Of a DNA stretch of 64,000 nt, positions 8,964 to 54,467 are shown piece after piece (within the stretch, counting starts at the first letter, position 1; each line of letters starts with the position of its first letter). The position numbers were made by a program, and so were the translations under genes. This DNA comes from Spirosoma radiotolerans (lineage in GTDB: Bacteria > Bacteroidota > Bacteroidia > Cytophagales > Spirosomataceae), in contig NZ_CP010429.1 of assembly GCF_000974425.1 (NCBI RefSeq), positions 3,844,001-3,908,000 on the forward strand, given 5' to 3'. The notes under the pieces are model-generated. The model was not told where the DNA came from and searched no databases. It was given only the letters and a program-made list of their open reading frames with translations.

Positions 8964-9241
8964 GTTGCTGGTTGGAGCCAGTTACTGGTGCAGATTTTCT
9001 GTTAAAGATTCTTTGCTTTTGTAGGGCCTGAACACAACTCCATGCGCCAGACCTAACTTTATTTAACAGCCTTTTAATTTCCTTTTCAACTCCTTTTAAG
9101 GTTACACAGCGAGTTTTAACCACTCAACCAGGTAAACATCTGCCGACACCGATATGGCACTTTTCGCTGGTCTGTGTAATTTTTAACAAATAAATTAATC
9201 TGCCGTTTTTAAATCAGCCGATAGCTATGTATGTTGCCGAC

Positions 9242-9919
9242 ATGAAGATCCTGGTAGTAGAAGACGAACCCAAATTGGCCTCCTTCGTGAAGAAGGGACT
9301 GGAGGAGCAGTCGTGCGAAGTAGATGTGGCCTATGATGGGCAAGTAGGTCGTAATATGGCCCTCAATAACCTCTATGACGTGATTGTACTCGATATCAAC
9401 CTGCCTAAAATGAATGGCTTTGATGTAGTTCAATCCATTAGACAGGAAAAAAACCGGACACCCGTTCTCATGCTGACCGCAATGGGTTCAGTTGATGATA
9501 AACTAACGGGCTTTGAAGCCGGTGCCGACGATTACCTGGTGAAACCCTTTGAGTTTCGTGAGTTGATGGCTCGCTTACGGGCCCTGACCAAACGAAGCAG
9601 TGATGCTGGTATGCAGGCCAATGTGCTGAAAGTAGCCGATCTTGAACTGGACCTGAACGAAAAAATCGCTCGCCGGGGCGACAAACGTATTGAGCTTACG
9701 GCCAAAGAATTTGGCCTCCTCGACTATTTGATGCGAAACCGGGGCCGCGTTGTTTCGCGGGTCGATATTGCCGAAAAAGTTTGGGATATTCACTTCGATA
9801 CAGGCACGAATGTGATTGATGTCTATGTCAATTTTCTTCGCAAAAAAATTGATAAGGATTTCCCAACCAAACTGATTCATACAGTTATTGGTATGGGATA
9901 TATGTTAAAAGAGGAATAA
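9242..9919 (+). CDS. OmpR/CusR-family DNA-binding response regulator
   Basis: Two-component response regulator. An N-terminal receiver domain (KILVVEDEP at the start, phospho-acceptor Asp51 in VLDINLP, Thr in LTAMG, Lys in DDYLVKPFE) is followed by an OmpR/PhoB winged-helix domain with the ELTAKEFGLLDYL and GTNVIDVYVNFLRKKI signatures. The frame opens at 9227, but MKILVVEDEP at 9242 is the family-typical start. It is most like CusR/CopR regulators, and the CusA-type pump lies just upstream, so metal control of that pump is a reasonable inference. The partner kinase follows after 82 nt that hold a strong hairpin. Confidence 0.9.
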   Translation: MKILVVEDEPKLASFVKKGLEEQSCEVDVAYDGQVGRNMALNNLYDVIVLDINLPKMNGFDVVQSIRQEKNRTPVLMLTAMGSVDDKLTGFEAGADDYLVKPFEFRELMARLRALTKRSSDAGMQANVLKVADLELDLNEKIARRGDKRIELTAKEFGLLDYLMRNRGRVVSRVDIAEKVWDIHFDTGTNVIDVYVNFLRKKIDKDFPTKLIHTVIGMGYMLKEE

Positions 9920-43913: not shown

Positions 43914-44188
43914 GCGCTTGTCTGGTTGTGGATTTTGTGAAAAGAAATGTTGGTCCTTGACTTGTTTTGTAGATGTAGATAGGAAGCAGAAAGCGGAAAC
44001 TAGTTTCTTGATAGCTGATTTTCGAGTATGTATAGCTGGAGGTGTCAAAAGGTGAGTGGTCGTGAGGAGAAATTTTTAGAAATATTCTCACTTACCTTTT
44101 TCGTGTATCTCCCATTAACCCATAGTAAGTTCGCTGGCAGATACGATTGTAGGCCATTGGAGTTTATATTCGTCCATTCTACAGCCTT

Positions 44189-44776
44189 ATGTCAACCCGA
44201 CCGCTTCCTATTTACTCAACTGAACTCGAATTTTATACGGCCTTGACCCGTCGCGATGAGCGGGCTTATCAGTTTTTATACGCGGATGTGTTCCCTTCCT
44301 TTCGGTATTGGGTACTGTCCAACAGTGGCTCCGAGATGGACGCCGAAGATTCGTTTCAGAAAGGCTTACTTAATTTTCTGCTGAACGTAGAGACCGGAAA
44401 ATATCAGCTTCAGGCAGAAGCCCGCATCACCACGGTCGTCTTTGAATATTGTAAACGCGTATGGCAGACGGAGTTGAAGTCGGCTCGGTTCCGGACAAAA
44501 GCTACCTTGCCTGATGCAATCGACACCGCCGATACAGCCGATGTAGTTAAGGATCTTGAACGAATGGATGTGGTGGAGGCCGTTCGGAAATCGCTGGACC
44601 AGCTTAAAGGTGAATGCCGGAAATTGATGGAGTGGTTTTATATGGATGATCTCTCCTTAAGGGACATTGCCGAACGACTTGGCATGAAAGAATCTTCGGT
44701 TAAATCGAAGCGCTATGATTGCGCAGAAAAGCTCAAAGCGTTTTACCTGAAAACAGCGACTCAGCAAGGGTTATGA
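44189..44776 (+). CDS. ECF-type RNA polymerase sigma factor
   Basis: A 195-residue sigma-70 family factor lacking regions 1 and 3. Region 2 covers about 15-90 (AYQFLYADVFPSFRYWV, with DAEDSFQKGLLNFL), and region 4 about 125-185 with the helix-turn-helix LRDIAERLGMKESSVKSKRYDCAEKL. Its last bases overlap the next start codon as ATGA, so it is coupled to an anti-sigma-like protein. The N-terminus is slightly more divergent than in typical ECF factors. It is convergent with the kinase/caspase operon, which makes that operon a candidate target, though no shared promoter motif was found. Confidence 0.87.
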   Translation: MSTRPLPIYSTELEFYTALTRRDERAYQFLYADVFPSFRYWVLSNSGSEMDAEDSFQKGLLNFLLNVETGKYQLQAEARITTVVFEYCKRVWQTELKSARFRTKATLPDAIDTADTADVVKDLERMDVVEAVRKSLDQLKGECRKLMEWFYMDDLSLRDIAERLGMKESSVKSKRYDCAEKLKAFYLKTATQQGL

Positions 44777-45564
44777 ATTTATCGGAACAGCAATATGAGC
44801 TTATTGACGCTTATTTAACCAATGAGCTTTCGGCAGCCGACCGGGTTGCCTTTGAGAATGATATGAAAGCGGATGCGGAACTCCGGACAGAGGTCGACCG
44901 GCAACGCGACATCCGGCTGGGTCTGCGGGCATTGGGGATCGAACGGGCACTGCAACAGGCAAAAGCGCAGTACAAAGCAACCTCGGCGCCAATAGAAACC
45001 GCGTCTGCTAGCCAGCTCATTGTTCGGCCGTTGGTTTCCTGGCGGTACTGGGCTGCGGCCGCTTCGGTGGTTGTTGTGCTGGGCGTTGGGTATTTTACGT
45101 ATCAGCAAACGACAAGCCGGCAGGCGGATCTTGCCTATGCCGAGACGTTTTCGTCTGACCCGACGGCTGACTTGATGAAGGACTTCCCAACCGGCAAAGT
45201 AGCGCCTTCCATCCGAGGTCAGTTTCTGGACGCGACGACGAAGTACAAGTCGGGAAAGTATGATGAGGTGATCGACCAGTTAAAAACCCTGCCCGCTGAT
45301 AAACAGACGATGCAGTACCGGAATTATTTTCTGGGCTTAAGTTATCTGGCCAACAAGCAGCCCGTCGAGGCCATTCCATTGCTTACGAAAGCCCAAACGG
45401 CATCGTCTGGTACACTTCGGCAGAAAGCAGAATGGTTTCTGGCGCTGGCCTACGTCAAGAACGAGCAAAAAGAAAAGGCCCTACCCATCCTGAAACGAAT
45501 CAGTACAGATAAGGCCCATCCTTTCCAATCACTGGCAAAGCGAGTGCTCAAAAAGATCGAGTAA
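44773..45564 (+). CDS. anti-sigma-like membrane protein with C-terminal TPR domain
   Basis: A 263-residue protein. The N-terminal part (about 1-60, EQQYELIDAYLTNELSAADRVAFE) looks like a zinc-less anti-sigma domain, one membrane helix follows (about 93-112, RYWAAAASVVVVLGVGYF), and the periplasmic part (about 125-262) is built of TPR-like repeats. The ATG at 44773 overlaps the sigma factor stop (ATGA). It should hold the sigma factor at the membrane and release it on a periplasmic signal read by the TPR part. Its stop is 8 nt from the convergent LamG lipoprotein stop. Confidence 0.82.
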   Translation: MNLSEQQYELIDAYLTNELSAADRVAFENDMKADAELRTEVDRQRDIRLGLRALGIERALQQAKAQYKATSAPIETASASQLIVRPLVSWRYWAAAASVVVVLGVGYFTYQQTTSRQADLAYAETFSSDPTADLMKDFPTGKVAPSIRGQFLDATTKYKSGKYDEVIDQLKTLPADKQTMQYRNYFLGLSYLANKQPVEAIPLLTKAQTASSGTLRQKAEWFLALAYVKNEQKEKALPILKRISTDKAHPFQSLAKRVLKKIE

Positions 45565-45572
45565 GCTGGTTT

Positions 45573-47228
45573 TTATTGCTTGTACAACGCATCCACTTCG
45601 CTGGCTGTCAACGCCCGTTTGTAAATACGAATGTCGTCCATTGCGCCATGGAAGTACCAGTTAAGCCCTTGAATGGCCGCGCCAAATTTCAACTCCGCAC
45701 CCGGACATTTATCCATTTTATCGAGAGGGAGATCAGTGTTTGTATATAAGGGAACGTTGTTCAAATACATTCGAACGGTTCTTCCACTGTAGGTAAATAC
45801 CAAATGGTACCAGGTGTTTACTTCAATTCGGCTGGTAAAGGGAAATTCCAGCCATCCTTTTCCGGGCTGACATCCGCTATTCTGTTTAATATTGGTCATA
45901 ACTGTAGTATTAGGACCAAGATCGTTTTCCAGCTTCAATAAGGCACTATAGGTTTCAAAATTACTATCACTAAAGCGAGACTTATTGTATACCTGCATCC
46001 GGTGCGTGAAGGAAGACATTTTAAACCAGATACTTACGGACAGTGCTTCAGGATTCAGGCTGTTGTTGCTATTCTCAGGCATATAGAAATAATCATTCAC
46101 ACCGTCTAAGAAAATAGCTGAATTAGGTCTACCCTTATGGTCAGTCGTAAAAGTAGGGTTATCGACTAATTGAACATGGTTATTATACCCGCTGACATCC
46201 AAAAGCGATTGGTCTGTGAACGAAACAGAGGCAATGAGGTCCTGAGCGACAGGGTCAATTTGGGTCGTAAAGGACATGATCGGTCCATATATGATCTCTC
46301 CCGATGCCAGCCTGGCAAACGAACGATAATAGTAGGTTTTGTTTGAAGTCAGGTCGTTTAGGTTAACAACGACATTGGCCCCTGCGGTAGGGCTGACGAT
46401 TTTAACCGAAGGGCTGTTTACATCCGGTATATTGGTCGTTGATGAGTAGTAAATTCCATACTCGATGGCGGCTGGATTGCCCAGATGCTGTACGACCAAA
46501 TTAATCGAAGCCGTTGTGACACCTACACTCGCGGTGCCGTTTGTAACAACCACCGGATTTTGGCCCGTCTGGAATGTTTGTACAGCACTATAAACGGTTC
46601 CAGCGGCATTGGTGGCAAAGCTACGAGCGTAGTAGATCACATTTGACTGGAGGCCGGTTAGCGACATAGGGACAGCTGTGCCAGTAGGTGCTGGTAGTGC
46701 GCCCTGAACTACGGTATCGTTCTCTTTATCTGGCGTTTGATTTGTTGCCGAATAGCAAATACCGTACTGGGTAATCGTCGCGTTTCCATTAGAAGTGATG
46801 GTCATTCCGGCCAATGCTGAGGTAGTGGAAACGGTCGTGATTGCCTGCAATGTCACCGTCGGCTTAACGGCATCACTCACAGTAACGGTCTGCTGTATTG
46901 TGGTTTCAAGGCCGCAGGTGTTCGTCAGGGTAGCCTTTACCGTATACGTACCATTGGCGGGGTACGTGTAGCTCACGGTCATTCCTGTAGTAGCCGAAGT
47001 ACTTCCATTACCGAAATCCCAGTTCACTTTATCGATGGTGCCACCGCTGTTACTAATTGAAAAGTCGACTTTCCGCTGCTGTGTCGGGGCATTGAGCGTT
47101 CCCGATGGTTTAACACACTCGCGCTGTGTTTTTTTAGTAGGGACTTCCCAGTTGCCACAACTTAAAAGCAGACTACCGAGGCCACAGACTGAAAAAAGGA
47201 TAAGAAGATACGTACGTGATGTCTGCAT
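45573..47228 (-). CDS. lipoprotein with PKD, FN3-like and LamG domains
   Basis: A 551-residue surface-type lipoprotein: signal ending LLLSC (Cys about 24), a PKD domain (about 50-120, VNWDFGNGSTSATTG and SYTYPANGTYTVKATL), two FN3-like repeats (about 125-325, each with YGICYSAT- or YGIYYSST-type strands and YYARSFA/YYRSFA), then a LamG/concanavalin-like domain (about 335-551, SVSIWFKMSS and the ending MDDIRIYKRALTASEVDALY). Such domains bind glycans or proteins. It is the last gene of the kinase/caspase operon, 29 nt after the TPR membrane protein gene, and could be that system's outer sensor or adhesin. Confidence 0.82.
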   Translation of the reverse strand: MQTSRTYLLILFSVCGLGSLLLSCGNWEVPTKKTQRECVKPSGTLNAPTQQRKVDFSISNSGGTIDKVNWDFGNGSTSATTGMTVSYTYPANGTYTVKATLTNTCGLETTIQQTVTVSDAVKPTVTLQAITTVSTTSALAGMTITSNGNATITQYGICYSATNQTPDKENDTVVQGALPAPTGTAVPMSLTGLQSNVIYYARSFATNAAGTVYSAVQTFQTGQNPVVVTNGTASVGVTTASINLVVQHLGNPAAIEYGIYYSSTTNIPDVNSPSVKIVSPTAGANVVVNLNDLTSNKTYYYRSFARLASGEIIYGPIMSFTTQIDPVAQDLIASVSFTDQSLLDVSGYNNHVQLVDNPTFTTDHKGRPNSAIFLDGVNDYFYMPENSNNSLNPEALSVSIWFKMSSFTHRMQVYNKSRFSDSNFETYSALLKLENDLGPNTTVMTNIKQNSGCQPGKGWLEFPFTSRIEVNTWYHLVFTYSGRTVRMYLNNVPLYTNTDLPLDKMDKCPGAELKFGAAIQGLNWYFHGAMDDIRIYKRALTASEVDALYKQ

Positions 47229-47257
47229 TTTTTACGGAAAAGATGGTGTGAAGTAAA

Positions 47258-48160
47258 TCAAAACGTGTAGCCAATTGCCAGTCCCCAGGACTGGGATGAT
47301 GGTTTCCATTGCAGCCCGCTGACACGGGATTTTGGCTTGTGCAACAGCAAATAAAGCTCGGCTACGGTTGCCACGGCAGCCACGCCCACGCAGGCTTTGA
47401 ACAACCCGTTTTTCTCTTGAGCAGCCTGAGCGGCATTGTAAGCCGCATCATATTGCCGATAGCTATCAGGGTTGGCAATAACGCCACTTCCGGTAGGATC
47501 GACCGTTTGGCTTACCTGGTTTAGTGTGCTCATTTTCGATCGGTAATCGCTACGCAACAGAGCGGCATATGCGCCCGCTCCTACCGCAACCAAACCCGTA
47601 ACGACCTTTATACCAATAAGTTTAGCAGGTTTTAGGCGTTCTTTAACAATTCGGATTTGAATTTGCAGGGATTCACGTTTTGCTAGGGTAGCGTACTTGA
47701 GAGCCTGCTCATAATTGTTTAAAGATTCCAAATACCGTTTCTGATTAAAAAATTTATTACCTTCTCGTTCGTAATAATCGGCGAACTGCCCTTTTGTGAT
47801 CAGGTCATCCGGGTTTAAATTCAGCAGTTGATCCAGGAGCTTGACCGCGTCCAGACCTTTGCCCTGCCGCATGGCGTCGTCGGCCTGCTGGCGTAAAGCA
47901 ATTCCGGTGGTACATTCCTGAATCTGCTCTTTGGCATAAGGGTCATTCTCGAAGCCGGGAACTTCGAGGCAGTTCTGATATTGCCGACGGGCTTCCAGGT
48001 ATTTACCTTCTTTGAACAGGTCATCACCGCGTTTTTTGTACCGGTCGTACTCCTCATCAACCATGACGGCACTAGAGGTCCGGCCCAGCACCTTGGCGGA
48101 GGGTACCATAGCGAATGACAGGAACAGGATAAGGATGAAGAGGTGTAATAGTTTATGCAT
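47258..48160 (-). CDS. TPR membrane protein of the kinase/caspase operon
   Basis: A 300-residue protein with a signal peptide or N-terminal anchor (about 5-25), three TPR-like repeats (about 37-165, RYKKRGDDLFKEGKYLEARRQYQN and later NKFFNQKRYLESLNNYEQAL), a membrane-like helix (about 183-200, IGIKVVTGLVAVGAGAYAAL) and another hydrophobic stretch near 255-272. The extreme C-terminus SWGLAIGYTF resembles a barrel strand. It starts 9 nt after the kinase gene. The kinase also carries TPR repeats, so the two may bind each other across the membrane. No family recognised. Confidence 0.7.
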   Translation of the reverse strand: MHKLLHLFILILFLSFAMVPSAKVLGRTSSAVMVDEEYDRYKKRGDDLFKEGKYLEARRQYQNCLEVPGFENDPYAKEQIQECTTGIALRQQADDAMRQGKGLDAVKLLDQLLNLNPDDLITKGQFADYYEREGNKFFNQKRYLESLNNYEQALKYATLAKRESLQIQIRIVKERLKPAKLIGIKVVTGLVAVGAGAYAALLRSDYRSKMSTLNQVSQTVDPTGSGVIANPDSYRQYDAAYNAAQAAQEKNGLFKACVGVAAVATVAELYLLLHKPKSRVSGLQWKPSSQSWGLAIGYTF

Positions 48161-48169
48161 AAAATTGGG

Positions 48170-50413
48170 TTACTGGTTTGTACATTGTTTAATTTTCCGC
48201 CGAACTTCTTCGGTGTCTTTCAGCGACTTCGCGACCTGATACCAGTCTTTGGCTCCCTCAAACTCATCCCGATCAAAGATTCTATTGGCAGTCGCCATGT
48301 AGGTTGTATAGGCGGCATCGGCTTTAGCCGTGTTGAGTTCCTGTTCTTTTGCCAGCGAACGGGCTTCTGTAAAATCAGCTATCGCTTTAGTCTTGTTATT
48401 TCCCTTCGCTATTGCTTTCTGGCCGCTCTCGATGAGCTGATCATATTTTTCCTGTGCTTCCAGCTTTTCGTTCTTCGGTGATTCTGGAATTGGAGTTGTT
48501 TCCGTCGCTTTTGATTTGTCTGATTCTGGTGTTTCTTTTTTGGGTGATTCTGGTGAACCAGCAACTGGTTCCTCTGTCTTCTTCTCTTCTGGCATTTTAC
48601 CCGGCAATTCTTTCATAGCCGTTATAGCCTCCGTCCGTAAGGCAGCCACATCCCGTCGTTCAGAATCAAGACGCAACGCGCTGTTGGTCATCGTAACAAC
48701 AGCCATGTAATCTTTCTGCAGGTACGACCGTTTCGCTTTACCCAAGGCTATGTCTATTCGAGCTTTCAGCGCTTCTTTTGATTCACCCAGCAATGGCTTT
48801 ATCACTTCCGGAGTTTTCTCTGGTACAGGCTTTGACCCGATCGTTGGACTCACGGCCGCCTTTGAATGACGCTCCGTTTTTCCTGTAGGCTTTGACGGGT
48901 CAGGTGTAGTACTTCCTAGATTAACATACAGCACAATGCCCCCGACAACGAGGGCGATGGGCGCCACAACCCGCCAGGGAAACACTCGCCCCGTTGGGTT
49001 GACGAGAACGGGTTGACTAATCGGTGGTAGAACAGGCGGCTGGCTAGCGGGTTTGGTCGACGATTTAGCTGGTGCCGCAAAAGCAGGCTTTGTCGCCTTT
49101 GCCGACTCGCGCTTTACACCCCTGACAGCCAACGGCTTGTCAGGCTTTACAATAGGGGCTGGCGTCGGTACATAAACATCGGTACGCTCCTCCTGATACA
49201 CATCGGTCAACTCTGGCTCAGGCACCAGTGATTTTGGCCGAAGAGCCTCGATGCACAGCGCCAAGCCACGAATGGCGGTTTCCTCAACCGCATTCAGTCG
49301 CAATACTTGCTCATACAGTACCTTTGCTTGAGCGAAACGCTGTTGACTCATCAGATTTTGTGCTTCCTGCAGCAAACTTACCTGGTGCTGCTGTTGCAAG
49401 CGGGCTACACACTGTTCCAGCCCTTTTTGAGCCTCACTATGGTGTTCGCGCTTAGCGAGTACCTGCTCATATAAGGTACTCGCTAATTTATATTCTTGCT
49501 TGTTTAGTAATTCATGCGCTTCAGCAATCAGTTGCGGAATCGCGTCCAGCAAATCCAGCAATTCCTGTTCCTTGCGAACGCGCTCATGGATGTCCCGAAC
49601 CAGACACCGACGAATGATCGCCCGGTATGGCTCGGCAACCTGGTCAAGGCGAGCGGGGAGGTCGACCGTTACGATCTTCTTTTCAATTTCGCGTCGAACG
49701 GATTGTTCACTGCTGTTGCGCGCGTCGGACCGGAAGGGCTTCTCTCCGGTCATCATCTCATACAGAATAACCCCAAACGCCCATAAGTCGAGGTTAAAAC
49801 TAACCCGACTCCCTTCGATCTGCTCCGGTGCTTTATAGGATGGTGTTCCGCGACCATCGCTTAGGTCAAAATCAGAGCTGTCCAGTTCCTCATCGCTCAC
49901 CAGCTTGCTCAGGCCAAAATCCGCAATTTTGGGAATAAATCGGCCCGCATTATCGCGTGAGATCAGAATGTTGGCCGGTTTGAAATCACGGTGAACGATC
50001 CGGTGGCGATGCAGATGCTGAAGACCCAGCAAAATGCCCTGCGTAATGTCATAAATCTGCGAGGGAGTTAGCGCCACCCGTCGGATCAGGTCAGCCAGAT
50101 TGCCATCCGGATAGTACTTCATAATCGCGAAGTCACTAACACTGGTATCTGTTTCGAGCCGATAGCAGGCATCATATCGGGCAATATTAGTTTGCCGGGG
50201 CACCCGCTGCGCCAGTTCAACCTCTGCCTTGAGGGATTTCGTATCGTTTCCTTTAAACTCACTTATTTTAACGGCAACCCATTCTGTTTCAAGCTGGTCT
50301 TCAACCTTAATAACCCGACCGTATGAACCACTGCCCAGCAAAGCCCCTTCGTCGTTGGGGCGAATGGGGTACCGTTGTTTGAAGTCTTTAAACGATGTAA
50401 ACGTTTGATTCAT
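48170..50413 (-). CDS. transmembrane Ser/Thr protein kinase with TPR repeats
   Basis: A 747-residue Hanks-type kinase. The N-terminal catalytic domain (about 20-290) has the Gly loop GSGSYGRV at about 27-34, Lys49 in VAVK, the RD catalytic loop HRDFKPAN (Asp143), DFG at 165-167 and APE at 195-197, so all key residues are present. Two TPR-like repeats follow in the cytosol (about 300-380), then a Pro-rich linker, one membrane helix (about 481-499) and a periplasmic part with more TPR-like repeats. The start ATG at 50413 is preferred over 50428. It lies between the caspase and TPR genes and faces its expected antagonist PP2C in the same operon. Confidence 0.92.
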   Translation of the reverse strand: MNQTFTSFKDFKQRYPIRPNDEGALLGSGSYGRVIKVEDQLETEWVAVKISEFKGNDTKSLKAEVELAQRVPRQTNIARYDACYRLETDTSVSDFAIMKYYPDGNLADLIRRVALTPSQIYDITQGILLGLQHLHRHRIVHRDFKPANILISRDNAGRFIPKIADFGLSKLVSDEELDSSDFDLSDGRGTPSYKAPEQIEGSRVSFNLDLWAFGVILYEMMTGEKPFRSDARNSSEQSVRREIEKKIVTVDLPARLDQVAEPYRAIIRRCLVRDIHERVRKEQELLDLLDAIPQLIAEAHELLNKQEYKLASTLYEQVLAKREHHSEAQKGLEQCVARLQQQHQVSLLQEAQNLMSQQRFAQAKVLYEQVLRLNAVEETAIRGLALCIEALRPKSLVPEPELTDVYQEERTDVYVPTPAPIVKPDKPLAVRGVKRESAKATKPAFAAPAKSSTKPASQPPVLPPISQPVLVNPTGRVFPWRVVAPIALVVGGIVLYVNLGSTTPDPSKPTGKTERHSKAAVSPTIGSKPVPEKTPEVIKPLLGESKEALKARIDIALGKAKRSYLQKDYMAVVTMTNSALRLDSERRDVAALRTEAITAMKELPGKMPEEKKTEEPVAGSPESPKKETPESDKSKATETTPIPESPKNEKLEAQEKYDQLIESGQKAIAKGNNKTKAIADFTEARSLAKEQELNTAKADAAYTTYMATANRIFDRDEFEGAKDWYQVAKSLKDTEEVRRKIKQCTNQ

Positions 50414-50445
50414 ATACCTGACTAACAAGTCAATAACTAATAGGC

Positions 50446-51219
50446 CTATCGATACGACAAAGGCAAGCTGTCGGAAAAACGCCCATAAAACATGGGCGTT
50501 TGACGGCCTCGGGTTCGCTTCCTGACCGCCGGCCCTACATACTGGTGTAACTCTCGTATCGTTACAATTCCGTTGCCATCCAGATCACCCTGTCCCGTCA
50601 GGCCCTTGATCAGGAAATGCGTAAACGCCCCACCCGCTAACTGGCCATCTTCAACGGCATACTGCGTAGATCGACTGGCCAATATCATGGCCACATTGCG
50701 GCCGTCATTTACCTTACTTTCTATAGCAGTTCGACTGATTTTCTGCTGGGTCATTCCACCAGACAGGCAGGCATCGGCGATACACAGCTTTGTTATGGCT
50801 GAAGACTCATGAAAAGCGGCTTTGATGGCTTGATACGATAACATCTTCCCTTGATTGCCCGGTCGGGCGTCGTAGGGGACAAAGCTGCCAGGCAAGCCAT
50901 GCCCCGAAAAATAGAGGATAACCCGGTCATTGGTGCCTGCCTTTCGGAAAAGCTGTAAGGCTTGCTGAACCGCTGACAACGTAGCCTGCCGGTTGGTCAG
51001 GAGCCGAATATTTGCCATCGGCACATTGCCGCCAGACTTACTCTGCAAAAAGGTAACGACCTGTCGGGCATCCCGATCGGCAAATCGCAAATCGCCCGCT
51101 GCATATGAGAGAGCTTTATAATCGGAAATACCGACCACCACCGCATAGGTAGTTCCGGGGGTGGCAGTGGGCAGGTAACCCAAAAACGAGCTTACCCAGA
51201 TCAGTAAATTAGTCAGCAT
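50446..51219 (-). CDS. caspase-family (peptidase C14) protease
   Basis: A 257-residue metacaspase/caspase-fold protease: the start of the fold TYAVVVGISDYKAL, the catalytic His107 in YFSGHG and the catalytic Cys151 in IADACLSGG. A C-terminal extension carries an EF-hand-like DLDGNGIVT loop, which may bind calcium. The first 20 residues are hydrophobic (NLLIWVSSFLGYL), so it may be exported or membrane-bound. Its start overlaps the PP2C gene by 11 nt and the kinase gene follows after 32 nt. Caspase-like proteases with signalling partners often execute cell death or proteolytic signalling; here that is inference from context. Confidence 0.9.
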   Translation of the reverse strand: MLTNLLIWVSSFLGYLPTATPGTTYAVVVGISDYKALSYAAGDLRFADRDARQVVTFLQSKSGGNVPMANIRLLTNRQATLSAVQQALQLFRKAGTNDRVILYFSGHGLPGSFVPYDARPGNQGKMLSYQAIKAAFHESSAITKLCIADACLSGGMTQQKISRTAIESKVNDGRNVAMILASRSTQYAVEDGQLAGGAFTHFLIKGLTGQGDLDGNGIVTIRELHQYVGPAVRKRTRGRQTPMFYGRFSDSLPLSYR

Positions 51220-52030
51220 ACTTTTGGGAAGAATCGGGCAGATGAACGGATTCTGCTTGTTTTACGTAGCTAATGCCAATCAGATAGCCAGAATAATTAT
51301 CCTTCGTTTGCTCACCACACATGGCCTGCAGCGACTGTATTTTGGTCAGATCGGGCAAGTTGCTGGCGAGCACAGTTTCCAGTACATAGTCATCCATTTG
51401 CTCCAGCACACCATCTGTACACATAAAAAAATAATCTCCGGCCTGAATGTCGGTTAAGGTGACCATATCAGGGACAGAGCGGGACGTATGGCCTTTTTTA
51501 TCGGTAGAGCTAGCGACCACCGCCCGGCTCAAGCGATTGCGCCAGGGATGCGACAAAGCCTGGGTAGCCGTGATGATGCCCGATTCGACCATGTCATTCA
51601 CCTGTCGATGATCTTGGGTTTGAAAGACGATTTTACCCGCCCGAATCTGGTAAACGCGGCTATCGCCTACATGAGCCACCGTAACACCGTTTTGATGAAT
51701 TTGTAGCAAAGCAAGCGTAGAGCCCATGCGATTTACAAACGGATGCTGCTCAAAATAAGCCTCATACGCGTCGTACGCTTGGTCTAGAGCAGCGTTCAGA
51801 TGCACCTGATCAAAAACAGGATCATTCATCGCCAAGGCATAATCGCTTATAGCTGTGCATAATAACTGGCTGGCAATCTCGCCCTTGTCGGCGCCACCCA
51901 TACCATCGCAAAGAATAAACAGCTGGGTCTTGTCCGTTGCCATACCGACAGCCGGATACAGGGCATCCTGATTGATACTGCGCTGCCCAATGTGCGTAAA
52001 GGCGAAGGGCAAAGCGGATTGGATATACAT
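51209..52030 (-). CDS. PP2C-family Ser/Thr protein phosphatase
   Basis: A 273-residue metal-dependent phosphatase of the PPM/PP2C family. Conserved motifs: SINQDALYP (first metal Asp), LCDGMGGADKGEIAS, VAHVGDSRVYQI, HPWRNRLSRAV and FFMCTDGVLEQMDD. It should reverse phosphorylation by the kinase encoded two genes downstream. It starts 3 nt after the FHA gene and overlaps the caspase gene by 11 nt, so phosphatase and caspase are translationally coupled. No membrane segment is seen. Confidence 0.93.
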   Translation of the reverse strand: MYIQSALPFAFTHIGQRSINQDALYPAVGMATDKTQLFILCDGMGGADKGEIASQLLCTAISDYALAMNDPVFDQVHLNAALDQAYDAYEAYFEQHPFVNRMGSTLALLQIHQNGVTVAHVGDSRVYQIRAGKIVFQTQDHRQVNDMVESGIITATQALSHPWRNRLSRAVVASSTDKKGHTSRSVPDMVTLTDIQAGDYFFMCTDGVLEQMDDYVLETVLASNLPDLTKIQSLQAMCGEQTKDNYSGYLIGISYVKQAESVHLPDSSQKYAD

Positions 52031-52033
52031 AGG

Positions 52034-52636
52034 TTACTCGGTGCGGTCGGGGTTATAATCTAGTGAAACCTTATAGGTTTCGAGCATCGTGGCTGGTATG
52101 GAGTAGTGCGTCAGACGAAACCGATCCAGACCTCCCAGTGTAACGATCGACTGATCATTCACATCAATAATTTCTGTTTTCAGCAAGAGCATGCCGTCAA
52201 CCATTGTCCCGTTCAGGCTGGGTTGACTGGATTGAGAGCCGGGGTCGACAGCTCCATCCTGAAGATGATACCGAAGCTGACCTGTCCACTTGTCGAATGT
52301 GATCGTCAATGTGCAATGCCGACGGCTGATAAAGCAGCGACCATTGTGAACGAACCGATTTACCTGAATGGTACTCGTGTCGGATGTGCCAATCACATTG
52401 CGGCCAAACTCAAGCGGGTAGGTCGCGCCAGAATCACCTAGATAAGCCAGTTGGCCAAATGAAGGCAGGCCCTGCACGATAGCTTCGTCGTACTGAAACG
52501 CTGTTTGTACTACGTTAACAGCCCCACAGCCAACATGAGAACAGACAATAGAGCCGCGCTCAGCGTCGGCCGCACGCACCATAATTCGCCGACCACATTG
52601 CTGACAGACAATAAGCGTTGTTTTAAATCCAGCCAT
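52034..52636 (-). CDS. FHA-domain protein with N-terminal zinc ribbon
   Basis: A 200-residue cytosolic protein. Four cysteines (CQQC near 11-14 and CSHVGC near 32-37) form a zinc ribbon, followed by an FHA domain (about 75-190) with the usual core FGRNVIG, the HN/RRH region FISRRHCTL and LNGTMVDG. FHA domains bind phosphothreonine, so this is a likely reader of the kinase in the same operon. It lies 3 nt before the PP2C gene. Confidence 0.85.
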   Translation of the reverse strand: MAGFKTTLIVCQQCGRRIMVRAADAERGSIVCSHVGCGAVNVVQTAFQYDEAIVQGLPSFGQLAYLGDSGATYPLEFGRNVIGTSDTSTIQVNRFVHNGRCFISRRHCTLTITFDKWTGQLRYHLQDGAVDPGSQSSQPSLNGTMVDGMLLLKTEIIDVNDQSIVTLGGLDRFRLTHYSIPATMLETYKVSLDYNPDRTE

Positions 52637-52641
52637 GTTTT

Positions 52642-53631
52642 CTATTCGTCCATGTCACGCACATCCCCATTATTGACATAGGTATCGTCGGGCTCGTGTG
52701 AATCAGCGAGGTATTGCTGTTCGTCGGCTTCATCATCATCCAGACCGTGCTCATGCGAACCCTGCACATCGGGCGTTTCCACGGCGTCAGCGTTGGGTGT
52801 CTCAACGAGTACATCGACATCCGGCTCAAGAATCGAATCCACTACTTCTTTCGACATACTCGCTTCGAGTCCCTGGTTAAAATCGTCATTGGACAGAACG
52901 AATGGTTCGTCAATTCGCTCAACTTCTACCAATTCACCGTTGAGCGAGTCATAGCGATAGAGCGTATCCAGACCATCGTCGCCACGGGCATCGACGACGC
53001 GGTAGGTATAGCCATCTGCGCCATCCAATACGATCGTATCAATCACACCATCCCGATCAAAATCCAGGCCCATTACCCGTTGGCCATTGAGGTGGCCTTC
53101 AATAATCGTTGGCTCCACGTCCGCTGTCGGGGCCGAAGCAACGTTCTGAGCATTTGGCACCGGCGAGCCATAGGGTTTCACGGGCAATTTTTCGCCCAGG
53201 ATGTTTTCCGTATACTCCTGCCGTTGCTCCAGCGAAAGGCTATTCCACTCCTCTTTTTCGAAGGTATTGTACCAGTGCCCGTGCCAGCTAAACACCCCCC
53301 CCATACCAACCTCCTGGCGAGCAGTTGTAAAGGCCTGCTCAAACGACATATTGTCCGTTACTTTTCCGGCAACGTCAACATCGTCGGGTAATTCTACAGT
53401 CGGTGAGTCTGGCGTACCTGGTTCAGCAGTCGGAGTATCTGTTACTTTTCCATACTCCTTTGTTCTTTGGGCAACCGCCCAGGCGGCTCCGCCTAATAGC
53501 ATTGTGGCGGCAGAAATGCCCAGCACTTTCTTTTGACTGGCGTTGATGCCTGATTTAGATAAGGAAGGCGTTGATGGTATCATGGAATAGGTATCGGTTG
53601 GCAAATCGGACTGGTTGGCAAGTTGCGACAT
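52642..53631 (-). CDS. acidic membrane-anchored protein, possible phospho-substrate
   Basis: A 329-residue protein of unknown family. A Ser/Thr-rich N-terminus (about 1-30) precedes a membrane helix (about 36-52, VLGISAATMLLGGAAWAVA), a Pro/Thr/Asp linker, a middle domain with WHGHWYNTFEKEEWNSL, then a calcium-type repeat-like LDFDRDGVIDTIVLDG and a long very acidic tail (about 265-329). The N-terminal Thr/Ser residues face the cytosol and would be natural targets of the kinase and ligands of the two flanking FHA proteins, but this is inference. The ATG at 53631 is preferred; the frame from 53772 would overlap the upstream FHA gene. It is 5 nt from the second FHA gene. Confidence 0.7.
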   Translation of the reverse strand: MSQLANQSDLPTDTYSMIPSTPSLSKSGINASQKKVLGISAATMLLGGAAWAVAQRTKEYGKVTDTPTAEPGTPDSPTVELPDDVDVAGKVTDNMSFEQAFTTARQEVGMGGVFSWHGHWYNTFEKEEWNSLSLEQRQEYTENILGEKLPVKPYGSPVPNAQNVASAPTADVEPTIIEGHLNGQRVMGLDFDRDGVIDTIVLDGADGYTYRVVDARGDDGLDTLYRYDSLNGELVEVERIDEPFVLSNDDFNQGLEASMSKEVVDSILEPDVDVLVETPNADAVETPDVQGSHEHGLDDDEADEQQYLADSHEPDDTYVNNGDVRDMDE

Positions 53632-53711
53632 GGCTGATAGGAGAATAAATCTTGATTGATGTGGATGAATAAAGCTTATCCCAAAAAGGTAAGTGTAAAG
53701 GGAAGACTTTT

Positions 53712-54467
53712 TTAGTTGACCCAAATAGCCTGACAACGTCGGCAGCTCTTTTGCTGGACGAGCAGTTCCCACTCGCGCGTCCCGAATGGATCACGACAGG
53801 CTGGATTAGGGCACCGGTATTTCTCACGGTATTCTTTCTCAATGACTTCCAGCTTCTCTTCGGTTGACAACAGCGTCGAGCATAAGGTGGGGACCAACAT
53901 ACTTAATCCTGCTCCTGACATAATGTGAAGCAGGGGTAAAGCCGCCCCTCCTGTCGACAGAACCGAGCTAATCCCGACAATCGATGAGAGAATTACGCTA
54001 CCCGTCCGAATCATTTTTTCGCGATTTCGGCATTCTTTTCGAAGTATCGGGTATTGTTGATAAACCTGTTGCAGGTCGGCAAAGGCATGGGTAAAGTCAA
54101 GCGGATTTGCGTCTGCGTTGGGAGATTTTTTTGTGGCAACTGGCGCTGACTGTACGGTGGATTTGACGGGCTCGTTTTTTATTAGAGCCAGAATTTCATC
54201 AACTGTAAGAACGGTGTCGGCAAAGCGAAGCGTATCCTGTTTGTCAACTACTTTGCGCGTAACACGCACGTCATTCACAAACGAGCCATTTTTACTGGAA
54301 AGGTCCTCAACGATGAAGCTCGTTGACGTGCATTGAATCAGCCGGGCATGATGCCCACTCACTTTACTCTGGGGGAGAACCAGTTGATTGTCGACACTTC
54401 GTCCAATTGTATAAGCAGTCAATTGGCTTAAAGTATCAATCAGTTGGTAAAACTGACTATCGTTCAT
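53712..54467 (-). CDS. FHA-domain membrane protein with C-terminal zinc ribbon
   Basis: A 251-residue protein and the first gene of the kinase/caspase operon. The N-terminal FHA domain (about 8-95) has GRSVDNQLVLPQSKVSGHHARL and the SSKNGSFVND strand. A charged linker and a hydrophobic hairpin (about 158-205, VILSSIVGISSVLSTGGAALP) suggest two membrane helices, and four cysteines at the end (CPNPACRDPF and CRRCQAIW) form a zinc ribbon. It probably brings phosphothreonine-bearing partners to the membrane. A weak -7-like box (TATCTTCG on the minus strand, 54520-54527) lies 53 nt upstream. Confidence 0.85.
   Translation of the reverse strand: MNDSQFYQLIDTLSQLTAYTIGRSVDNQLVLPQSKVSGHHARLIQCTSTSFIVEDLSSKNGSFVNDVRVTRKVVDKQDTLRFADTVLTVDEILALIKNEPVKSTVQSAPVATKKSPNADANPLDFTHAFADLQQVYQQYPILRKECRNREKMIRTGSVILSSIVGISSVLSTGGAALPLLHIMSGAGLSMLVPTLCSTLLSTEEKLEVIEKEYREKYRCPNPACRDPFGTREWELLVQQKSCRRCQAIWVN

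Follow-up and report, generated by a model that had tools for sequence, protein, structure and literature searches.

What does a caspase do in an operon that also encodes a protein kinase, a phosphatase and two FHA proteins? The question is raised by a 64,000-nt stretch of the Spirosoma radiotolerans chromosome (NZ_CP010429.1, positions 3,844,001 to 3,908,000), here called the window; coordinates given below without an L- or G-number are positions in it, L-numbers denote fetched homologous loci and G-numbers genomes. Bacterial caspases are mostly treated as effectors of cell death or conflict, and a trigger is known for few of them. In the window's ORF listing, eight co-directional open reading frames (ORFs) on the minus strand (45573-54467) encode, in order, a first FHA protein (FHA1), an acidic adaptor with a single transmembrane (TM) segment (AC), a second FHA protein (FHA2), a PP2C Ser/Thr phosphatase, a small caspase, a TM Ser/Thr kinase, a TPR protein and a PKD/LamG protein. 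Our comparison shows that this operon is a single conserved gene set. We further propose that a transmembrane phospho-switch on AC governs extracytoplasmic proteolysis by the caspase, a reading to which we give an about even chance. It builds on the conservation and co-occurrence of the genes, the catalytic residues, N-termini of export type, a common motif and natural gene fusions.

Conservation of the operon

Conservation was followed in a family set of 57 loci with small-caspase relatives (L041-L097). A locus was counted as in order when all five core families lay on one strand, in order, in ORFs of at least 100 aa; broken or weak genes were tolerated in this count (AC in pieces in L087, PP2C split in L070, a weak AC match of 19 bits in L090). 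The core order FHA1, AC, FHA2, PP2C, caspase was found in 50/57 loci, and the gene cluster is for that reason regarded as more than chance. The remaining seven comprise two PP2C-caspase fusions (L068, L071), two loci cut by contig ends (L073, L074) and three in which AC was not recognised (L082, L086, L091). Two small-caspase contigs, from G025 and G026, were too short for the family set; they correspond to L156 and L144, with core genes present. Many genus and family genomes encode full-length relatives of the caspase. Within the genus, AC and the small caspase go together: 26 of 36 genomes have both and the other 10 have neither. Distance matrices of the caspase and of the core proteins correlate with r of 0.90-0.95, much of which shared descent alone would yield.

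The core is continued in two ways. In the 33 type-1 loci (L041-L073) it is followed by the kinase (33/33) and the TPR protein (32/33), usually then by the PKD/LamG protein and a convergent anti-sigma/sigma pair, while the 24 type-2 loci (L074-L097) carry the same core with different accessory genes that vary from locus to locus. Large fused caspases served as controls, 3 of the 11 listed being fetched (L098-L100): L099 and L100 lack core genes altogether, and in L098 PP2C and kinase genes lie on the opposite strand. The preliminary description of this DNA, made from its letters and ORFs, had taken the eight genes for one set, and the gene order in the relatives agrees with it.

The spacing given there, with gaps of 3-80 nt and a single overlap of 11 nt, is confirmed by the ORF coordinates. 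FHA1 (251 aa, 53712..54467; Pfam FHA, 2.8e-15) has an N-terminal FHA domain, a hydrophobic stretch and a C-terminal zinc ribbon whose cysteines (C219, C224, C242, C245) are invariant in 18 sequences. After 80 nt comes AC (52642..53631, 329 aa from the ATG at 53631), recognised by alignments, topology and motif, and after another 5 nt FHA2 (200 aa, 52034..52636; FHA, 3.7e-07), which is built of an N-terminal zinc ribbon, the FHA domain and a Thr-bearing C-terminal tail. A gap of 3 nt leads to the phosphatase (273 aa, 51209..52030; PP2C_2, 2.1e-13), which also matches Stp1_PP2C_phos at 1.7e-42, under the NCBI cut-off, and whose ORF overlaps that of the caspase by 11 nt. The caspase, of family C14 (257 aa, 50446..51219; Peptidase_C14, 2.3e-17), is separated by 17 nt from the kinase (752 aa, 48170..50428; Pkinase, 2e-49), which starts at TTG. 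The TPR/membrane protein, probably exported (300 aa, 47258..48160; TPR_2), follows after 9 nt, and the PKD/FN3-like/LamG protein with its lipoprotein-like N-terminus (551 aa, 45573..47228; Laminin_G_3, 5.9e-21; PKD_4, 5.4e-12) after 29 nt. The domains named earlier are present (with Pfam matches to FHA twice, PP2C_2, Peptidase_C14, Pkinase, TPR_2, PKD and Laminin_G_3), and writer, eraser and reader are encoded together, as an FHA/PP2C/Hanks-kinase module requires. The eight genes are real; the earlier list had omitted the convergent sigma and anti-sigma/TPR genes described below.

The caspase and its predicted location

The catalytic residues H107 and C151, already described as intact, are invariant in an alignment of 18 caspase sequences, and an EF-hand-like loop (D212-E223) is conserved in the same alignment. 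An AlphaFold2 (AF2) model of the caspase (pLDDT 87.0) matches metacaspase 4 with a Z of 24.4 and 2.3 A over 208 residues, and the modelled fold is that of metacaspases and of the MALT1 paracaspase; by sequence no solved structure was matched at E<=0.01, though the fold comparison is clear. With this fold, the conserved dyad and the EF-hand-like loop, protease activity and Ca2+ dependence are plausible predictions.

What the earlier account of the caspase had missed is its hydrophobic N-terminus. A hydrophobic stretch was defined as a mean Kyte-Doolittle value of at least 1.6 over 12 residues, scored just before the fold in caspases and, in control proteins, within the 40 residues that open the longest ORF. 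Such a stretch precedes the fold in 55/56 family members, compared with 0/57 for PP2C, 1/56 for FHA2, 2/55 for FHA1 and 1/55 for the kinase; two caspases (L085, L086) escaped the scoring pattern and were judged by eye. Many of the N-termini resemble signal peptides ending in A-Q and some carry the lipobox of lipoprotein signals, [AGS]Q being found within the eight residues that precede the fold in 35/58 N-termini. According to the Q-rule of Bacteroidetes, cleavage by signal peptidase I exposes a Gln in most substrates (PMC5837995, in the part of the text consulted). Distant caspases, including longer MORN-like ones and those of Bacteroidales, have such signals in the examples inspected. Moreover, two genomes encode natural fusions of PP2C, TM segment and caspase in a single reading frame (L068:9072-10637, minus strand; L071:8295-9899, plus strand), in which a KK-TM-AQ stretch lies between the two domains, with Gln after the TM segment as in a signal-peptidase site. 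This arrangement suggests a phosphatase inside and a protease outside the membrane.

The N-terminal segment could instead be an anchor that keeps the caspase cytoplasmic, with readers, phosphatase and protease in one compartment. The window caspase itself has no charged n-region, that is, no basic residue before its hydrophobic stretch, and no [AGS]Q site; in five Dyadobacter/Runella-type caspases (L092, L094-L097) basic residues stand directly after the anchor, which makes these anchors ambiguous, so that a cytoplasmic caspase could fit. Both features count against export. Nevertheless, we hold a cytoplasmic caspase to be very unlikely in view of the A-Q or lipobox signals of many homologues, distant Bacteroidales among them, and of the fusions that suggest opposite membrane sides. 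The caspase probably acts outside the inner membrane, as far as can be judged from its sequence and those of its relatives, and with export-type N-termini its release in the cytoplasm is not supported.

AC, a common threonine motif and the proposed circuit

The layout of AC comprises a short N-terminus with the motif TDTY (Thr12), one TM segment, a 66-residue signature domain (53173..53370, minus strand), DxDxDG segments and an acidic C-terminus. The highly conserved signature domain follows the pattern MSF-EAF-AR-EVG-GG-F-WHG-Y-T-EW, with A13, R18, G22, G24, F27, T36 and E41 (domain numbering) invariant in an alignment of 21 sequences. A positive-inside pattern is seen in most members; the N-terminus is probably cytoplasmic, and the signature domain, DxDxDG segments and C-terminus would lie on the extracytoplasmic side. 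At E<=0.1 neither Pfam nor NCBIfam has a family that matches the window protein. Identification by profile was tried and abandoned, some members giving weak FG-GAP, EF-hand or other matches (FG-GAP_3 in 2/17) and the window protein none; identification by fold was likewise rejected, the AF2 model (mean pLDDT 63.5, with better values in the signature domain and in the beta part) having no PDB match at E<=0.001.

A motif of the same type is found in the kinase, whose linker between kinase domain and TM segment bears TDVY twice (T408, T416). All 34 type-1 kinase linkers (the window and 33 loci) contain TDx[Y/F], 30 of them twice or more, and so do 28 of 33 type-1 AC N-termini (the window and 32 loci; the L073 protein, cut at a contig end, was excluded); shuffling would yield 2.3% of linkers and 1.4% of AC N-termini, a test that overstates significance because related sequences are not independent. 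The motif is concentrated in the linkers, with 66 occurrences in 5850 residues there and 8 in 18292 residues elsewhere. In type-2 loci, Thr sites of another kind, for example T-[VI]-L-F, are seen in the AC N-termini and FHA2 tails, and E-T-[IR]-[FV] motifs stand at the start of several distant AC proteins, both noted by eye. TDx[Y/F] and the other Thr motifs are likely phosphothreonine sites for both FHA proteins. The motif common to the kinase linker and the AC N-terminus is a candidate phosphothreonine site, and with it AC is, as suggested earlier, a good candidate for the phospho-substrate.

Convergent to the operon, on the plus strand, lie the genes of an extracytoplasmic function (ECF) sigma factor (44189..44776; sigma70-ECF, 49 bits, cut-off 42.9) and of an anti-sigma-like TM protein with a C-terminal TPR part (44719..45564), the latter identified by linkage and by an NCBIfam anti-sigma match of 7.4e-08 that is below the cut-off. 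A sigma homologue above 200 bits was found in 43/57 family loci (29/33 of type 1, 14/24 of type 2) and in 0/3 large-fused-caspase controls; the window sigma factor scores 426.1 bits against itself and its next best relative in its own genome 66.9. Given this linkage and the distant next relative, the pair (44189-45564) is counted as probably belonging to the system. Between the TM segment and the TPR part of the anti-sigma protein stands K154, a position occupied by K or R in 87% of 30. Upstream of the sigma gene, at 44047..44123, an inverted repeat AAAAGGTGAGT / ACTTACCTTTT with a CC-ATTAA element was recognised by eye, and it is visible in the same way in many of 23 sigma upstream regions. 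The element has one match at <=2 mismatches in the 7.03-Mb genome, which is a single contig, so no regulon can be deduced and control of the operon by the sigma factor is offered as a proposal only. A promoter common to the sigma gene and FHA1 was considered and rejected, as no dyad lies on both sides in more than one locus (26 FHA1 and 23 sigma upstream regions).

The circuit that we propose would run as follows. In the cytoplasm the kinase, as writer, would phosphorylate the Thr of TDx[Y/F] in its own linker and in the N-terminal tail of AC. FHA1 and FHA2, as readers, would recognise the phosphothreonines and bring AC, kinase and phosphatase together at the membrane, and PP2C, as eraser, would reset the switch. 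AC would pass its state on through the inner membrane to its extracytoplasmic domain, at which the exported and possibly Ca2+-dependent caspase may be held back or switched on. Sensing or docking is the likely task of the TPR protein, the PKD/LamG protein and the outer portion of the kinase; hydrophobic N-termini were scored in 31/31 homologues of the TPR protein and 30/32 of the PKD/LamG protein. The ECF sigma/anti-sigma pair would form the transcriptional arm. As a speculative but natural target, the caspase might cut the anti-sigma protein in its periplasmic linker, where K154 is of the residue kind that a metacaspase-like enzyme could cleave. In a bolder form, the circuit would define a new transmembrane signalling class of Bacteroidota in which cytoplasmic Thr phosphorylation, via the adaptor family AC that Pfam lacks, switches on an exported caspase that cuts a dedicated anti-sigma factor (or surface proteins); this we regard as unlikely as it stands.

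Exported PKD-type proteins near the core differ in their C-terminal parts (LamG, propeller-like repeats, vWA-like) among L066, L067, L069, L083 and the window (45573-47228), as if, from their sequences, a binding part had been swapped between loci.

Distribution, rival accounts and known systems

Two scans were made beyond the family set. A scan of named species with the caspase alignment, overlapping the family set, gave 371 relatives, and among the best 80 of them all four other core families lie beside the caspase in 43, two or three in 13 and one in 3. Size separates these relatives: at least two core families accompany 48/52 caspases of up to 330 aa and 8/28 of the longer ones. Judging by record titles, loci with at least two core families come from Bacteroidales (rumen metagenome-assembled genomes, MAGs), Tannerella, Dysgonamonadaceae and Prolixibacteraceae, and further from Flavobacteriales, Saprospiraceae, Bernardetiaceae and Cyclobacteriaceae. 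The class level was sampled by an even draw of 395 genomes, of which 29 have a caspase match at E<=1e-15; the 11 best caspase places outside the order were fetched, and L133 is the only one of them with core genes. AC was detected in 5/395 class genomes, the same five with whole-AC and domain profiles, which may be an undercount since the profile search scores few candidates per genome, and in the caspase-led scan AC is present in many MAGs. With class-level and AC counts this low, the system is sporadic outside its home family, and most of the wider caspases, usually longer, do without the core.

Several observations weigh against the phospho-switch as the common role of these genes. No core family accompanies the caspase in 21 of the best 80 of the 371 relatives or at 10/11 class-level loci. 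At L133 (6498-8770), in a genome from another family, caspase, PP2C and FHA1-like genes adjoin without AC or FHA2, and FHA1-AC-FHA2 loci without a caspase exist as well (L127, L128, L129). TDx[Y/F] is limited to type 1, type-2 loci carrying other Thr motifs; five type-1 AC proteins lack it, and the relatedness of the sequences inflates the shuffle test. In 14/57 family loci no sigma gene scored above 200 bits. Finally, phosphorylation, FHA binding, signal direction, substrate and trigger are predicted parts of the circuit, and so are proteolysis and export. That caspases of this kind might regularly stand apart from the signalling genes had been named in advance as a finding that would speak against one system; it does not hold for the small caspases of the family, with 50/57 in order, and it does hold for many wider relatives, as the class-level and named-species loci show.

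These distributions could mean that FHA1-AC-FHA2-PP2C, with or without the kinase, is a general envelope phospho-module for which the caspase is an interchangeable output, used for instance in the maturation or trimming of surface proteins. The modules without caspase, the caspases without core and the variable accessory genes of type-2 loci are what such an arrangement would leave. The small caspase, however, keeps its place in the core order throughout most of the family and is fused to PP2C in two more loci, and its distances follow those of the core proteins within the limit given above, and we find the general module rather unlikely. At L127 (2730-10832) two exported proteins with WG-like repeats, seen by eye, lie between FHA2 and PP2C, at L128 (6429-11326) the FHA1-AC-FHA2 module is near a 1032-aa exported protein, and L129 (9089-11574) has AC, FHA1 and FHA2 only; the exported proteins of L127 and L128 are possible alternative outputs.

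Other arrangements were met among the relatives. Dyadobacter psychrotolerans (L164, about 9001-9702) has a small caspase, kinase and sigma/anti-sigma genes, with no FHA, AC or PP2C found, and so departs from the usual pattern. Longer caspases with MORN-like N-terminal repeats, recognised by eye, and A-Q type signal peptides (L176, L187, L199, L203, L210) stand partly alone and partly adjoin FHA and PP2C genes. The source genome itself encodes a second, 1023-aa protein with a caspase-like domain (L131:8687-11758; G000:C1:5128948-5129646), within whose 19-kb stretch no core family was found.

The preliminary description had raised a cell-fate role. In a cell-fate or anti-phage reading, an invader or envelope signal would free a lethal caspase, either cytoplasmic or lytic from the periplasm. 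Conflict systems of bacteria do include caspases as peptidase or effector parts (PMC7159879, in the sections available), and the kinase resembles defence-associated kinases (mad6, 5.7e-58; PD-T4-6). The patchy occurrence of AC, in only 5/395 class genomes, would also suit such a role, as would a caspase relative of 40% identity on the Runella rosea plasmid NZ_CP030851.1 (75,895 bp); the type-2 core module of L083 sits on a contig of 75,895 bp. However, a caspase that looks exported is a poor fit to intracellular abortive infection, the kinase falls far under the NCBIfam MAD6 cut-off (116.8 vs 460 bits) and is not a MAD6 kinase by that measure, and the system is kept in 26/36 genus genomes. The flanking genes of the window appear, from their sequences, to encode a potassium transporter, an epimerase, a glycosidase, a methyltransferase and glycosyltransferases, and look like housekeeping genes rather than a defence island; no tRNA or Rfam family was found in the window. 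PADLOC models were run at E<=1e-8 on 136 of 175 listed neighbours from 32 loci (kinase-like and core-like ORFs and ORFs >900 aa being excluded). Among the 25 of 93 matched families listed, which include Cas1-type models, HEAT-ARM_XIII (2), MzaA (1) and kinases (1), each matches at most 2 of the 136 proteins, a count made without a matched control set. The defence role thus finds little support at this locus, and we judge it distinctly improbable.

In the Thr-phosphorylation pathway of the type VI secretion system (T6SS) the corresponding parts are PpkA, PppA and Fha. A TM Ser/Thr kinase located in the envelope, a PP2C and an FHA reader are common to that pathway and to the operon, whereas the operon also has the caspase and AC, carries its FHA domains on two proteins of their own, and has a sigma gene linked to it. 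The operon could be a diverged version of it, steering a T6SS-like secretion machine by the same logic, and by the title of PMC3953482 a T6SS Fha protein interacts with a phosphothreonine of TssL, which can be counted in favour. We think this extremely unlikely. The marker VipB was detected in 0/36 genus genomes, in a search that among 14 controls was positive for E. coli alone, so a divergent T6SS could be missed, and no secretion gene was found among the ten window proteins scanned with Pfam, consistent with the absence of secretion genes noted earlier.

Three more described systems come near to the operon. In the two-gene EACC1-caspase system, said to be common in actinobacteria and scattered in proteobacteria, a caspase stands beside a single-TM protein that is proposed as its activator (PMC7159879, sections available). 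The operon likewise pairs a caspase with a single-TM partner, and its caspase scores 84.9 bits against the NCBIfam model 'caspase, EACC1-associated type', whose cut-off is 140. AC has no match to EACC1 (PF19953) at E<=0.1, and the present caspase, unlike those of that system, is a small protein that looks exported and lacks a C-terminal effector, and is accompanied by kinase, PP2C and FHA genes. The kinase-kinase-phosphatase module KKP joins Hanks-type kinases, one with a CSD and one with a fused FHA, and a PP2C in one operon, and the word caspase is absent from its main text (PMC11341870). Kinase, PP2C and FHA are thus shared, but the operon has one kinase, in which Pfam shows neither a CSD nor a fused FHA, and its FHA domains belong to proteins of their own. 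The prokaryotic metacaspases or orthocaspases in operons, finally, share the C14 fold and His-Cys dyad (PMC3501461, PMC6426788, each in part). For 46 of their sequences one TM helix at the N-terminus, perhaps a signal peptide, is reported, and extracellular roles are raised (PMC3501461); orthocaspases cleave after basic residues (PMC6426788). In contrast to the operon, neither FHA nor phosphatase is mentioned in the main text of PMC3501461.

The gene set is not described in the accessible parts of PMC7159879, PMC11341870, PMC8195603, PMC3501461, PMC6426788 and PMC3355149, a selection of mostly open literature that leaves room for an earlier sighting, and a caspase wired across the membrane to a set of writer, eraser and reader has no description in the literature searched. 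The initial remark that no named system has the full set accords with this search. Kinase-PP2C-FHA signalling at the envelope is known; the AC adaptor, the exported-looking caspase and the linked sigma pair are new. Full or partial sets occur in scattered lineages of Bacteroidota, rumen Bacteroidales MAGs included. A lineage of small caspases seems to be exported and to belong to a complete Thr-phosphorylation circuit, and it offers tests, in a non-pathogen such as Spirosoma, of how a caspase is controlled and what it targets. If the bolder form of the proposal holds, cleavage of an anti-sigma factor or of surface proteins would couple phospho-signalling to regulated proteolysis and transcription in these bacteria.

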